IMG/VR virus record: IMGVR_UViG_3300005613_000455
Coordinates: 1 to 21,953 of that record
Origin: a virus
Length of the DNA: 21,953 bases
Strand: one strand, 5' to 3'
Shown: piece by piece, positions 6,304-19,211 of the stretch
How the letters are laid out: each line of letters starts with the position of its first letter
How positions within the stretch are numbered: position 1 is the first letter of the stretch
Made by a program: the position numbers and the translations under genes
The notes under the pieces: generated by a model
Told to the model about the DNA's origin: nothing
The model's input: the letters and a program-made list of their open reading frames with translations, nothing else
Database searches by the model: none

Positions 6304-6624
6304 CTATTTTTTTCTTTTTTCAAGATCAGCCCAATATTTAAATATTAATTTAGACTGTTTATCACTAAATTTAACAGCTCGTTCTTTCATTAATTTTTCA
6401 TATTTACGTCTGACAAAAAGACCTGTGAAACCAGCTAGGTGACATACATCATCAAAGTCCCTACCCCCATATAAAAACCAACGATGCGCTTTGGATTTTA
6501 ATACGGAAGTGACCTTACTTTCATTTTGACATAAGGCATCGATGAACGCCAAGGATAATACGGCGCGCCATAGTTTTCTCTCTGGCGAAATGATTTCGCT
6601 CTCGTCTAGCTCCAGTTTAAACAC
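6304..6624 (-). CDS. Conserved phage protein of unknown function (PERKLW...DFDDVCHLAG family)
   Basis: The 106-residue protein contains PERKLWRAVLSLAFIDA (14-30), a Trp-containing helix (AHRWFLYGGRDFDDVCHLAG, about 46-65) and a VRRKYEKL helix. As I remember it, the pattern W.AVL...I.DA, then W....DF..VC.LAG....V recurs in small proteins of alphaproteobacterial phages with no known role; helical and basic at the end, it may bind DNA. The start is GTG at 6624. No Shine-Dalgarno site is present; instead a TTGATT-N16-TATTTC promoter ends exactly 7 nt before the GTG, so a leaderless mRNA is predicted. It is followed by Hsp20. Confidence 0.75.
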   Translation of the reverse strand: MFKLELDESEIISPERKLWRAVLSLAFIDALCQNESKVTSVLKSKAHRWFLYGGRDFDDVCHLAGFTGLFVRRKYEKLMKERAVKFSDKQSKLIFKYWADLEKRKK

Positions 6625-6631
6625 ATAAAAA

Positions 6632-6659
6632 GAAATAACAGAAAACGGTGCCTAATCAA
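6632..6659 (-). promoter_or_regulatory. Leaderless-type promoter for the 106-aa gene
   Basis: On the minus strand TTGATT (6654-6659), a 16-bp spacer and TATTTC (6632-6637) preceded by TG-T (extended -10). Seven nt separate the -10 from the GTG at 6624. The -35 overlaps the 3' arm of the terminator-like hairpin at 6647-6710. Confidence 0.5.
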
Positions 6660-6710
6660 GGGATATAAAGGGGAAGCACGAATCAAAAAATGATACGTCG
6701 ATTAAGCACC
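6647..6710 (-). terminator. Terminator-like hairpin ending the 8403-6743 operon
   Basis: Minus-strand GGTGCTTAATC (6700-6710) pairs with GATTAGGCACC (6647-6657): 11 bp including one U-G wobble that exists only in minus-strand RNA. The 42-nt loop contains a small inner hairpin (6679-6697). U-rich sequence (GTTTTCTGTTATTTCTTTTT) follows. It starts 33 nt after the stop at 6743. Confidence 0.55.
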
Positions 6711-6717
6711 AATTAGA

Positions 6718-6746
6718 CAAATAGTGGTTTATCCAACCCCTGTCAA
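6718..6746 (-). promoter_or_regulatory. Candidate TTGACA promoter overlapping a stop codon
   Basis: A perfect TTGACA (6741-6746) lies 17 bp from a weak TATTTG (6718-6723) on the minus strand. It overlaps the stop codon of the ribbon-helix-helix gene. If active, transcripts would begin near 6711, just before the hairpin 6647-6710, which would then work as an attenuator. Confidence 0.35.
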
Positions 6747-7635: not shown

Positions 7636-7831
7636 AGCTTTGCATCCTTTCATCTAATTGTTTTACGATCAGAGTAAGTTTGGAATTATCTTCTCGTAAC
7701 TCTATTATTTTTCTTGCCATCGCTTGTGTTAGATTCTGTAATTCCTCTAACCAATCTACTAGCTGTACCACCGATTGAGTACTCATCTTGTTATCAACCT
7801 TAGGTATTTTTTTCATTTTGACTGTTTTCAT
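7610..7831 (-). CDS. Small coiled-coil protein, 73 aa
   Basis: Residues 17-65 form a continuous heptad-like helix (VVQLVDWLEELQNLTQAMA, then ELREDNSKLTLIVKQLDERM), so a dimeric coiled coil is likely. The N-terminus is Lys-rich. No family is recognised. The ATG at 7831 has an AAGGAG site and overlaps the stop of the 191-aa gene by 4 bp (ATGA). Its own 3' end overlaps the next start. Confidence 0.7.
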   Translation of the reverse strand: MKTVKMKKIPKVDNKMSTQSVVQLVDWLEELQNLTQAMARKIIELREDNSKLTLIVKQLDERMQSYERPQTKH

Positions 7832-8403
7832 TTTTCTCCTTTATTGGTTTTGATCTTACTGATCATATTTAAGTTGTATGGCACTACACCATCAAACTTA
7901 TAATATTTGTCCTCAAATTTATGTTCTTTGATTACAAATTCTATTGTAGCTTTATCGCCAATTTTTCTAAAATTCCAAACTGCTTTTGCAGTTCCAAAAT
8001 ATTTAAATCGATTACCTTGTTCATCTTTTAAATACACCACTCGTGAAGGTCCCCATTCCGTTTGAATGTCATAGGTTAATGTACACTCTAATTCACAAAC
8101 TATTTTTTCATTCACAGAGCCAACAAATTGTCTGGATACACACTGAGCTGCATCTTTTGCATAATTTAATTTTGCAATGTATGCATAGTGATCCTCTACG
8201 TGTTGATCCTGCTGCGGCTTCCACTCACCCATTTTTTTTCTGTACCAAATATCAAGTGGAACTTCAAAACCAATAATGTTTTTTGCTTTTATTAAAGCAA
8301 CATCTAAATCGGTTGAAAGATTTTGAATATATTCCATGCCGTTATTTAAAATATAATAAATATCATCAGCGCCTTTAGATACATGGTAATAACTTGTTTT
8401 CAT
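7828..8403 (-). CDS. Hypothetical phage protein, 191 aa, leaderless
   Basis: This protein is not recognised. Residues 1-90 mix helices with many Tyr (SYYHVSKGADDIYYILNNG). The second half is beta-rich: ECTLTYDIQTEW, RVVYLKDEQGNRFKYFGT, then GDKATIEFVIKEHKFEDKYY, which resembles a small beta-barrel such as an OB-like fold, though no conserved signature confirms it. It begins the operon that ends with the ribbon-helix-helix gene. There is no Shine-Dalgarno site: TTGACA-N16-TATCTA ends exactly 7 nt before the ATG at 8403, so the mRNA should start at or next to the start codon. Confidence 0.7.
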   Translation of the reverse strand: MKTSYYHVSKGADDIYYILNNGMEYIQNLSTDLDVALIKAKNIIGFEVPLDIWYRKKMGEWKPQQDQHVEDHYAYIAKLNYAKDAAQCVSRQFVGSVNEKIVCELECTLTYDIQTEWGPSRVVYLKDEQGNRFKYFGTAKAVWNFRKIGDKATIEFVIKEHKFEDKYYKFDGVVPYNLNMISKIKTNKGEK

Positions 8404-8410
8404 ATTAGTA

Positions 8411-8438
8411 TAGATAAGATAAGATAGGAAAATGTCAA
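8411..8438 (-). promoter_or_regulatory. TTGACA-N16-TATCTA leaderless promoter
   Basis: On the minus strand TTGACA (8433-8438), a 16-bp spacer and TATCTA (8411-8416) within a GATAA tandem repeat (8412-8427). Seven nt separate the -10 from the ATG at 8403. The opposite strand carries the start of the 8476 gene, so this 72-bp gap is a divergent control region. Confidence 0.6.
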
Positions 8439-8460
8439 GGTATATTTATGATTCATTTAA

Positions 8461-8469
8461 TGGTAGCAT
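8461..8469 (+). promoter_or_regulatory. Extended -10, leaderless promoter for 8476
   Basis: TG-G-TAGCAT (TG 8461-8462, -10 at 8464-8469) lies 6 nt before the ATG at 8476. The gene has no Shine-Dalgarno site. No good -35 is seen, as is common with extended -10 promoters. This is the weakest of the five leaderless candidates. Confidence 0.35.
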
Positions 8470-8475
8470 GAACAC

Positions 8476-8706
8476 ATGAAATTATTTGCTTTATTCGGTT
8501 TAATCTGTTTCCTTGATAATAATCAATGGGGAGAATCCTGTGTTAATTTTTGGGAGGATCCTGTAGTTCATTATAGATCATTAGAAGCATGCGATGCAGC
8601 AGGTAAACGAAAAGGGCTTGAATTACGCGCTTATTTTGATAAAAATGGTCTTAAAATTACACAAGGGGAGCTTTGGTGCATTGAGTCAAAACAGAGAGAG
8701 TCTTGA
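8476..8706 (+). CDS. Hypothetical small Cys-containing protein, 76 aa
   Basis: This protein is not recognised. The N-terminus MKLFALFGLICFLD is hydrophobic but short, perhaps a weak signal sequence. Cys22, Cys39 and Cys68 occur in contexts (WGESCVNFW, SLEACDAAGKRKG, ELWCIES) that suggest a small disulfide-bonded export domain, because that pattern of Cys with Trp and an ITxGELWCIES-like end is typical of secreted microproteins. There is no Shine-Dalgarno site; an extended -10 lies 6 nt before the ATG. It is the first of three plus-strand genes. Confidence 0.6.
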   Translation: MKLFALFGLICFLDNNQWGESCVNFWEDPVVHYRSLEACDAAGKRKGLELRAYFDKNGLKITQGELWCIESKQRES

Positions 8707-8730
8707 TTATTTGCTTATCTTTGCTATATA
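8703..8730 (+). promoter_or_regulatory. TTGATT-N16-TATATA leaderless promoter
   Basis: TTGATT (8703-8708), a 16-bp spacer and TATATA (8725-8730), 6 nt before the ATG at 8737. A perfect TATAAT at 8727-8732 (spacer 18) is an alternative -10. Because the -10 overlaps the ATG at 8731, translation from that upstream ATG is unlikely. Confidence 0.55.
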
Positions 8731-8736
8731 ATGTCT

Positions 8737-8979
8737 ATGAAAACGTTTAAATGCCATGTTAGATATCTCGGTGTCTATCACAAGGGTACAGTCCCAGCAG
8801 AAACCGAAGATGAAGCCTGGACACGTTTTCTTAACTTGATAAAGTCTGGTCAAACGCAGACCTTTAAAGAAGATGCGTATCGAAAAGATCGACTTTATCT
8901 GTTTATAGAGGAGGTTGATAATGATGTCACCGTCTCAGTTAGTGGCGAGAAAAATGCGCTTAGAAGCAAAGTGGAATGA
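8737..8979 (+). CDS. Hypothetical small phage protein, 80 aa
   Basis: The protein starts MKTFKCHVRYLGVYHKGTV, followed by AETEDEAWTRFLNLIKS: a strand-strand-helix pattern (KCHVRYL..YHKGTV..A.TEDEAW..F) resembling small conserved marine phage proteins, with no function known to me. The second ATG (8737) was chosen over 8731 because the promoter's -10 overlaps the latter and no Shine-Dalgarno site exists for either. The last 20 codons overlap the next gene in another frame. Confidence 0.65.
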   Translation: MKTFKCHVRYLGVYHKGTVPAETEDEAWTRFLNLIKSGQTQTFKEDAYRKDRLYLFIEEVDNDVTVSVSGEKNALRSKVE

Positions 8980-17177: not shown

Positions 17178-17713
17178 TATTTGTCCTCCTTTATTACGGT
17201 TTCAGTTTTTACATACGCGCCAAACAAAGTGTCTGGAATGTCTACACCTTTTTGCGTTTGTTCTTTTACAAACGCTTTCAGTTGCATAGCATTCACAGTT
17301 TGCTTTTTATTGACTACGATGTTTTGTAGTTGAGGTTGTGACTTGATCAGTTCCTCAAGCAGTCTTGCTTTATCGTCTTGTCCCTTCGTAAATGGAACAG
17401 CGATTTCGTTACGAATTAAGTCTTCGTGACCATTCGCACGTAACCACTCAAACGCTGCATCCTCATTTGATTTAGGTATGCGCGCAAAGTAGTTGGTTTT
17501 TAGTCCAACGTAACTGCCGTCTTCAAGTGTAAAGTCCCTCATACCAAGCGAAGATAGAAGTGCTGGTATTTCTTCTGTAGATATACGTTCTTCATCAATC
17601 TTCATTTGTTTAAGTTTTGCCTCCAACTCTTCGATATCACCACGAATCGATAGTAGTTGATTGCACTTAGCACTTAAAGAAGCAACGCCGTTGTCGTTTA
17701 TTTTAATCGACAT
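17177..17713 (-). CDS. Conserved phage replication-module protein, 178 aa
   Basis: The protein opens the replication operon. It starts at ATG 17713 (178 residues) because AAGGAGG lies just 5 nt before it; a further upstream ATG would lack a site. Residues 20-60 are a coiled coil (LLSIRGDIEELEAKLKQMK) and then a recurring phage pattern: LLSSLGMRDFTLEDGSYV, FARIPKSNEDAAFEWLRANG, HEDLIRNEIAVPF, and LKAFVKEQTQKG with DTLFGAYV at the end. This pattern occurs in many marine phages beside replication genes, with no established biochemistry. The one-base overlap with the SSB-like gene indicates tight coupling. Confidence 0.75.
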   Translation of the reverse strand: MSIKINDNGVASLSAKCNQLLSIRGDIEELEAKLKQMKIDEERISTEEIPALLSSLGMRDFTLEDGSYVGLKTNYFARIPKSNEDAAFEWLRANGHEDLIRNEIAVPFTKGQDDKARLLEELIKSQPQLQNIVVNKKQTVNAMQLKAFVKEQTQKGVDIPDTLFGAYVKTETVIKEDK

Positions 17714-17730: not shown

Positions 17731-17762
17731 TTGACATATAAACTTTATTAATTATATGTCAA
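17731..17762. promoter_or_regulatory. Perfect inverted-repeat divergent promoters (overlapping)
   Basis: TTGACATATAA (17731-17741) and TTATATGTCAA (17752-17762) form a perfect 11-bp inverted repeat with a 10-bp spacer. Each strand reads TTGACA-N16-TATATG, so the -35 of one promoter overlaps the -10 of the other. The plus -10 (17753-17758) ends 7 nt before the helicase ATG (17766), predicting a leaderless mRNA. The minus transcript would start near 17728 and still include the AAGGAGG site. Confidence 0.75.
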
Positions 17763-17765
17763 GCC

Positions 17766-19211
17766 ATGGGATATAAAAAATATAAATTCAAAACAAAACC
17801 GTACGAACATCAAATGAAAGCATTAGAAACTTCTTTTGATAAAGAATTCTATGCATTATTTATGGAGATGGGTACAGGAAAATCTAAAGTCCTACTAGAT
17901 ACAGTAGGTATATTATATGACAACCACAAGATAGAGGGGTTGTTAATTATTGCACCTAAATCTGTTTATTCTGTTTGGGCCAGGACAGAAATACCAACAC
18001 ACTTTCCTTTTTTACATACATCTGATGTTATCATGTGGAAAAACTCTGCAACTACAAAATTTAAATTAGAAATGAAACGTTTGATGAGTGATAATAAAAA
18101 ATTTAAAATTTTTATTATGAACATAGAAGCTTTGCAACAAGGTGGTAAAGCTATGGAAGCTGCTTATAAATTTTTAAAAAAATTTAAATCGTTAATGGTA
18201 ATAGATGAGTCTAGTAAAATTAAAAACCCTAATGCAAATAGAACGAAAAATATTCATATATTAGGAGAGTTAGCCCCGTACCGTAGAATACTAACAGGGA
18301 CCCCAGTAACCAATAATCCTTTAGACGTTTACTCACAGCTAGAGTTTTTAAATAAAAATATTTTAGGTTTTTCATCATTTTATTCTTTCCGTAATCGTTA
18401 TTGTGTTTTTCACGAAAGTGTTCAAAACGGTAGGATTGTTAAGTTTCCTAAGTTTTACACCAATCTAGCTGAGCTTGAACAAAAAGTGAAAAAGTTTTCT
18501 TATAGAGTAACCAAGGATGAATGTCTAGACCTACCAGAAAAGGTTTATTTAAAAAGACATTGTGAGCTTACGAAAGAACAGAAAAAAGTTTACGATGAAT
18601 TAAAGATACAAGCTATGGCTATCATTGAAGATGAAAGCGTAAGCTTTACCAATAAACTGACTGAAATACTTAGACTACATCAGCTGTGTAATGGCTTTGT
18701 TATGTCTGATGATGGAAACATTATTGAATATAAAAATAATGAGAAACTACAAAACTTAAAAGACATTATTGAAGAGTGCCAGGGTAAAGTTATTATCTGG
18801 GCTACTTACACTTATAACATTAAAATGATCGAACAGTTTTTAAAAGCAGAGTACGGATCCGAATCTGTTGTAACTTTTTATGGCCAGGACTCTAATGAAA
18901 AAAGAATTGAAGCTCGTGAGTCTTTTCAAAATAGTAAGAAGGTAAGATTTTTTGTAGGTAACACACAAACAGGTGGAATGGGTTTAACCTTAACTAACTG
19001 CAACACCATGGTTTATTATAATAATAATTATTCGTATGAACTTCGTGAACAATCAGAAGCAAGGATACATAGAATCAGTCAACAAAATAAATGTACTTAC
19101 ATAGACATCGTTGTCAAAGATACGATTGATGAAAAGGTAATAGATATTTTAAAAAATAAACTTAAGCTTTCGGCGAAGATTTTAGGCGAGCAAGCTCGGG
19201 AATGGATTTAA
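17766..19211 (+). CDS. SNF2-family helicase/ATPase
   Basis: The 481-residue protein has the SF2/SNF2 motifs in order: YEHQMKAL (13-20, Q-type), Walker A MGTGKSK (35-41), IIAPKSV, motif II IDESSKIKN (146-154), motif III LTGTPVTNN (176-184), then FYGQDSNEKR, motif V QTGGMGLTLT (401-410) and VI QSEARIHRISQQ (429-440). Such ATPases translocate on double-stranded DNA and in phages probably support replication or recombination. There is no Shine-Dalgarno site; the promoter's -10 lies 7 nt from the ATG, so the mRNA should be leaderless. It runs opposite to the replication operon, and its end overlaps the Zn microprotein on the other strand. Confidence 0.95.
   Translation: MGYKKYKFKTKPYEHQMKALETSFDKEFYALFMEMGTGKSKVLLDTVGILYDNHKIEGLLIIAPKSVYSVWARTEIPTHFPFLHTSDVIMWKNSATTKFKLEMKRLMSDNKKFKIFIMNIEALQQGGKAMEAAYKFLKKFKSLMVIDESSKIKNPNANRTKNIHILGELAPYRRILTGTPVTNNPLDVYSQLEFLNKNILGFSSFYSFRNRYCVFHESVQNGRIVKFPKFYTNLAELEQKVKKFSYRVTKDECLDLPEKVYLKRHCELTKEQKKVYDELKIQAMAIIEDESVSFTNKLTEILRLHQLCNGFVMSDDGNIIEYKNNEKLQNLKDIIEECQGKVIIWATYTYNIKMIEQFLKAEYGSESVVTFYGQDSNEKRIEARESFQNSKKVRFFVGNTQTGGMGLTLTNCNTMVYYNNNYSYELREQSEARIHRISQQNKCTYIDIVVKDTIDEKVIDILKNKLKLSAKILGEQAREWI

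Follow-up and report, generated by a model that had tools for sequence, protein, structure and literature searches.

The cI gene of phage lambda encodes the lysogeny repressor. Like the candidates described here, it is a phage gene presumed to be translated by host ribosomes from an AUG at the 5' end of its mRNA (PMC9031893), whereas our candidates, predicted from sequence, are a helicase gene and genes of no assigned function; phage transcripts have been described as frequently leaderless (PMC5312081). In bacteria, a -10 element located 6-7 nt before an open reading frame is a recognised mark of leaderless genes, as in the TA-led genes (Zheng et al. 2011, PMC3160421) and the -10-adjacent ORFs of Deinococcus-Thermus (PMC12340547). 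Those genes and ours share a -10-like box about 6-7 bp before the start (its first base at about 10-12 bp) and the lack of a Shine-Dalgarno (SD) sequence, but they make up as much as a third of the genes in those bacteria and only a few genes in this phage, in whose family promoters lie mostly 21-28 nt upstream; the boxes here often read TATNNA, as against TANNNT in the bacterial systems. In the pelagiphage HTVC023P (MN698239), gp09-gp11 are likewise laid out divergently close to the DNA polymerase gene and all three show the same promoter-to-start geometry, although gp10 and gp11 have no demonstrated homology to genes 8476 and 8403 of our phage and gp09, unlike its counterpart, overlaps gp10. 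Searches of the open-access literature returned no account of leaderless genes in pelagiphages. The layout itself is known, if uncommon; what the present analysis contributes is a set of candidate leaderless genes in pelagiphage relatives, together with an alternation between leaderless and leadered forms at a fixed promoter.

The window, by which we mean the whole 21,953-base virus record that was analysed, is DNA of a tailed phage whose relatives HTVC023P and HTVC027P infect Pelagibacter. Its DNA polymerase shares 50-57% amino acid identity with those of HTVC023P, HTVC027P, 023Pt_psg01 and phage DSL-LC04, and the order of its replication genes (DNA polymerase A, primase, helicase and a divergent second helicase) resembles that of HTVC023P-type pelagiphages and places it among their relatives. 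An IMG/VR contig of 51 kb (G001, with loci L011 and L017) is 97-98% identical across most of window positions 5.7-20.4 kb. Because HTVC027P is reported to lack an RNA polymerase of its own and to rely on the host enzyme (PMC12753301), host-type promoters are expected. The DNA polymerase module of this phage, at 93% amino acid identity, is also carried by CAJWGK010000046.1 (L172), assigned to a 'Flavobacteriaceae' MAG; this is probably a phage contig that was binned with the MAG.

We put at about two in three the probability that 8737+, 8403- and 17766+ (genes are named by start position and strand) are transcribed as leaderless mRNAs; their transcription start points and leaderless translation are what we infer from the promoter sequences, their conservation, the alternation mentioned above and the absence of SD sequences. 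According to this proposal, a few sigma70 promoters would lie so close to a gene that transcription begins no more than about 2 nt from the start codon, and the ribosome would bind the 5'-terminal AUG of these three mRNAs. The layout would arise because promoters stay fixed and what changes is the first gene or the leader in front of it; some lineages would place different genes right at the start point of the 8403 promoter and others would retain a short SD leader. Genes 8737+ and 8403- belong to a single divergent promoter region next to the DNA polymerase gene.

Table 1. Positions of the promoters, genes and hairpin discussed in the text.
Feature	Position	Strand	Description
Promoter originally proposed for 6624-	6632..6659	-	TTGATT (6659-6654), N16, TATTTC (6637-6632)
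Conserved hairpin GGTGCTTAATC ... GATTAGGCACC	6647..6710	-	upstream of gene 6304-6624; z -3.8
Promoter TTGACA-N17-TATTTG	6718..6746	-	predicted start at the 5' end of the hairpin
Gene	7828..8403	-	191 aa; between promoter and SD of the next gene
Promoter of 8403-	8411..8438	-	TTGACA (8438-8433), N16, TATCTA (8416-8411), N7 to ATG 8403
TGGTAGCAT-N6 before ATG 8476 (proposed extended -10)	8461..8475	+	indistinguishable from chance
Gene	8476..8706	+	76 aa; small Cys-containing protein
Promoter of 8737+	8703..8736	+	TTGATT (8703-8708), N16, TATATA (8725-8730), N6
Gene	8737..8979	+	80 aa; best-supported leaderless geometry
Promoter of 17766+	17731..17765	+	TTGACA, N16, TATATG, N7
Helicase gene (phrog_62)	17766..19211	+	

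The original prediction held that five genes without an SD sequence share a -10 element ending 6-7 nt before the start, with a constant 16-bp spacer in four of them, and that this is more than chance would give. All five promoter strings are present in the window and no SD lies within reach of any of the five starts, but a missing SD is weak evidence by itself because an SD match of at least 4 nt precedes only some 50% of the genes of these phages. The pattern TTGAYW-N16-TATNNN-N6/7-RTG occurs four times in 22 kb, always at a gene start, whereas 500 dinucleotide shuffles of the window gave 0.09 on average; since it was derived from the very sites on which it was tested, this comparison overstates the significance, and the relatives provide the real test. 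Neither the broader sigma70 pattern TTGANN-N15-18-TANNNT-N5-8-RTG (3 found, 3.7 expected) nor a relaxed pattern (14 found, 11.2 expected) was enriched in the window. Scored site by site against about 12,000 non-start ATGs of matched AT content, the starts gave p values of 0.002 (17766), 0.007 (8403), 0.04 (8737), 0.09 (6624) and 0.35 (8476). A -10 element ending 5-8 nt before the start is therefore better placed than chance at 17766, at 8403 and, with the support of its orthologues, at 8737, while 6624 is marginal and 8476 drops out. It could still be that the whole pattern is a chance alignment in AT-rich intergenic DNA, selected by eye, as the lack of enrichment of the broader patterns near window starts and the non-significant values for 8476 and 6624 might suggest; the low p values for 17766 and 8403 speak against this, as does the fact that diverged phages have kept the 8737 and 8403 promoters, and we regard it as very unlikely.

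Gene 8737 is an orthologue of HTVC023P gp09 (profile E 4e-13), and further orthologues are present at L001, L011, L002, L003, L172, L154, L155, L156-159, L161 and L167. Across about eight lineages, a -10-like box lies 4-7 nt before the ATG, mostly without an SD, and a TTG-type -35 is located 16-18 nt upstream of that hexamer. The window and L002 have TTGATT-N16-TATATA-N6; L003 and L172 have TATATAAT, 5-7 nt before the ATG; L154 and L155 have TTGATT-N17-TAAAAT-N6; L156-159 have TTGACA-N17-TAAATT-N6; L161 and L167 have TTGCAA-N17-TATTTA-N6/7; and HTVC023P gp09 has TTGACC-N17-TATACT-N5. The combined Fisher p for this geometry is 2.5e-8, a value computed over lineages that are related rather than independent. 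The start codon itself is right, since M1-K2 is invariant in seven aligned orthologues. Where the 8476 gene lies directly upstream (window, L002, L154, L155 and L156-159), the -35 includes the stop codon of that gene, which in the window is the TGA within TTGATT. A perfect TATAAT at 8727-8732 (spacer 18, distance 4) overlaps the TATATA (spacer 16, distance 6) and, if used, would put the transcription start inside the 8737 ATG. Comparison with the relatives thus gives good support to the leaderless start originally proposed for 8737+.

These genes might instead be leadered, with transcription starting farther upstream or reading through from a neighbouring gene, and with translation beginning without an SD at an unstructured A/U-rich start or by coupling. 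The modest frequency of SD matches in these phages fits such a view, as does the position of 8737, which begins 30 nt past the 8476 stop; in HTVC023P, a 4-nt overlap with gp10 could allow gp09 to be translated by coupling, and some alternative upstream promoters exist, such as the competing promoter in L161 and L167 that would give the 8737 orthologue a leader of about 10 nt. However, 8403, 17766 and the 8737 orthologue of L161 and L167 all start divergently and have no same-strand upstream gene to which they could be coupled, and the core promoter elements are kept next to the start while the remainder diverges. We therefore consider leadered transcription unlikely, albeit with appreciable weight, and prefer leaderless transcription for the three genes.

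The promoter of 8403- shows how such a layout might come about. Its TTGACA-N16-TATCTA is common to L001, L011, L002, L003 and L172, and gene 7828-8403, which has a weak match to phrog_2319, is present in L001 and absent from L011 (G001), L002, L003 and L172; by parsimony, the gene was probably inserted between the promoter and the SD in the lineage of the window and L001. In L011, the promoter runs directly into AGTAAAGGAG and then the next gene, and in L011, L002 and L003 it leads into AAGGAG or GGGAGG leaders. At the 8403-type promoter of L154, L155 and L156-159, TTGAC-N16-TATNNN-N8-ATG starts another gene, and at the corresponding promoter of HTVC023P, gp11 is preceded by TTGACT-N17-TATGTA-N7-ATG. 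With an SD-led next gene in some relatives and different genes 7-8 nt after the -10 in others, leaderless and leadered forms would alternate at this promoter. On this comparison, leaderless expression of 8403- is plausible. The repeat ATGAAAACA occurs at 8403 and at 7831, and recombination between the two copies was rejected as an explanation of L011, which retains the SD leader. No homologue of the 8403 protein beyond L001 was found in viral contigs or phage records.

The geometry of the helicase gene 17766+ is kept in L018, where the region has 85% DNA identity, and no ATG other than its own precedes the conserved KFKTKP. In orthologues at 47-51% identity, the promoter as a rule lies farther upstream, and the leader, often containing AGAAAG, is then about 20-25 nt long. 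The original call of a leaderless gene is thus plausible for the lineage of the window, in which 17766+ is probably leaderless, and does not extend to its distant orthologues. The promoter of 17766+ lies in a perfect 11-bp inverted repeat (17731-17741 and 17752-17762, TTGACATATAA-N10-TTATATGTCAA), which spans two divergent promoters and is partly retained in L018. The divergent minus-strand gene beside 17766 has an ATG at 17713 with AAGGAGG just upstream and is SD-led; for this reason, the ORF start called at 17737 on the minus strand is probably wrong.

The remaining two genes of the original prediction fared less well. As a leaderless gene, 8476+ was rejected, its site being no better than random ATGs and the extended -10 lacking conservation in L154 and L155. 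Orthologues of 8476 are found in L154-L159 and L002, and HTVC023P gp10 and HTVC027P gp20 are possible distant counterparts. An Rfam match to AHBV_epsilon at 8433-8518 (E 0.84) falls below the family cutoff and was taken as chance. For 6624-, the TTGATT that had been read as a -35 overlaps the 3' arm of an RNA hairpin. This gene probably has a structured 5' leader or a small RNA in front of it: TTGACA-N17-TATTTG, the likelier promoter, would drive an RNA whose first 64 nt or so form the hairpin. The fold has z -3.8 in the window and -6.4 in L002, the promoter and stem are kept in L002 and L172, and hairpins with unrelated stem sequences occupy the same position upstream of the 6304-6624 orthologue in L161-163, L154 and L156-159. 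In addition, the window has GTG as the start codon where L002 has ATG, and leaderless mRNAs of E. coli and Caulobacter are reported to be translated far less efficiently from GTG (PMC9031893). Against the structured leader, a good TATAAT stands 8-9 nt ahead of the ATG in L002 and L172, possibly a second, leaderless promoter of the orthologue, and no Rfam family matches the hairpin. A degenerate hairpin pattern matched 93 stretches in viral contigs and was too loose. A structured leader or small RNA remains our reading of this locus, and owing to the hairpin, with its own upstream promoter, and to the GTG start, we judge the leaderless start of 6624- unlikely. Promoter-like boxes in such windows can be the arms of RNA stems, which calls for caution.

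To place these cases within the family, 196 intergenic starts in relatives were surveyed against a null of shuffled two-base blocks, with genes taken as longest-ORF calls, among which some starts will be wrong. High-scoring sigma70-like promoters peaked 21-28 nt upstream of starts (9 and 7 observed versus 0.8 each at a threshold of 9.5), and the excess at 5-8 nt was weak (3 versus 0.9 expected at 9.5, and 8 versus 6.3 at 8.5). Among starts with a gap below 25 nt, promoters at this distance numbered 6 versus 1.0 at 9.5, but the neighbouring distances of 0-4 nt were likewise raised. A family-wide leaderless class was rejected on this distribution, and the leaderless layout is a minority arrangement in the family. 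In HTVC027P, gp20 and gp21 are predicted to be leadered with an SD, and gp87 to have a leader of about 25 nt. Nor does a constant N16 spacer and start distance hold as a rule, since relatives show spacers of 16-17, distances of 5-8 and leadered forms at the 8403 and 17766 orthologues. The idea of a class with a single geometry that sets a gene subset apart is likewise unsupported, as the 8403 promoter drives SD-led genes in close relatives and distant 17766 orthologues are leadered; the early translation programme suggested for such a class is speculation.

A bolder version of our proposal would see a divergent promoter hub beside the DNA polymerase gene, at which first genes are repeatedly swapped in exactly at the transcription start, small phage proteins are produced from leaderless mRNAs and leaderless translation is selected for, working when SD-led initiation fails at some stage of infection; we hold this to be rather improbable. 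If leaderless expression of the three genes is true, it would concern a group of ocean phages of which one relative, HTVC023P, is in culture on HTCC1062, and would be directly testable. The alternation of leadered and leaderless forms at one promoter among close relatives would then amount to a natural experiment on the origin of leaderless genes.

Two short motifs recur in the intergenic DNA of these phages. The octamer TATCCCAT/ATGGGATA is over-represented (10 segments versus 1.4 expected), with sites at HTVC023P 7950, 13043, 15185 and 16568, in the module promoters of L003, L154 and L156 and at window 17766; it overlaps core promoters at varying positions and is a possible operator. The motif TTGCCATA(ATT), found in 12 segments versus 1.9 in the relatives, lies upstream of some SD-led starts, for example 1805(-) in the window and HTVC023P gp20, and possibly represents a second promoter type.
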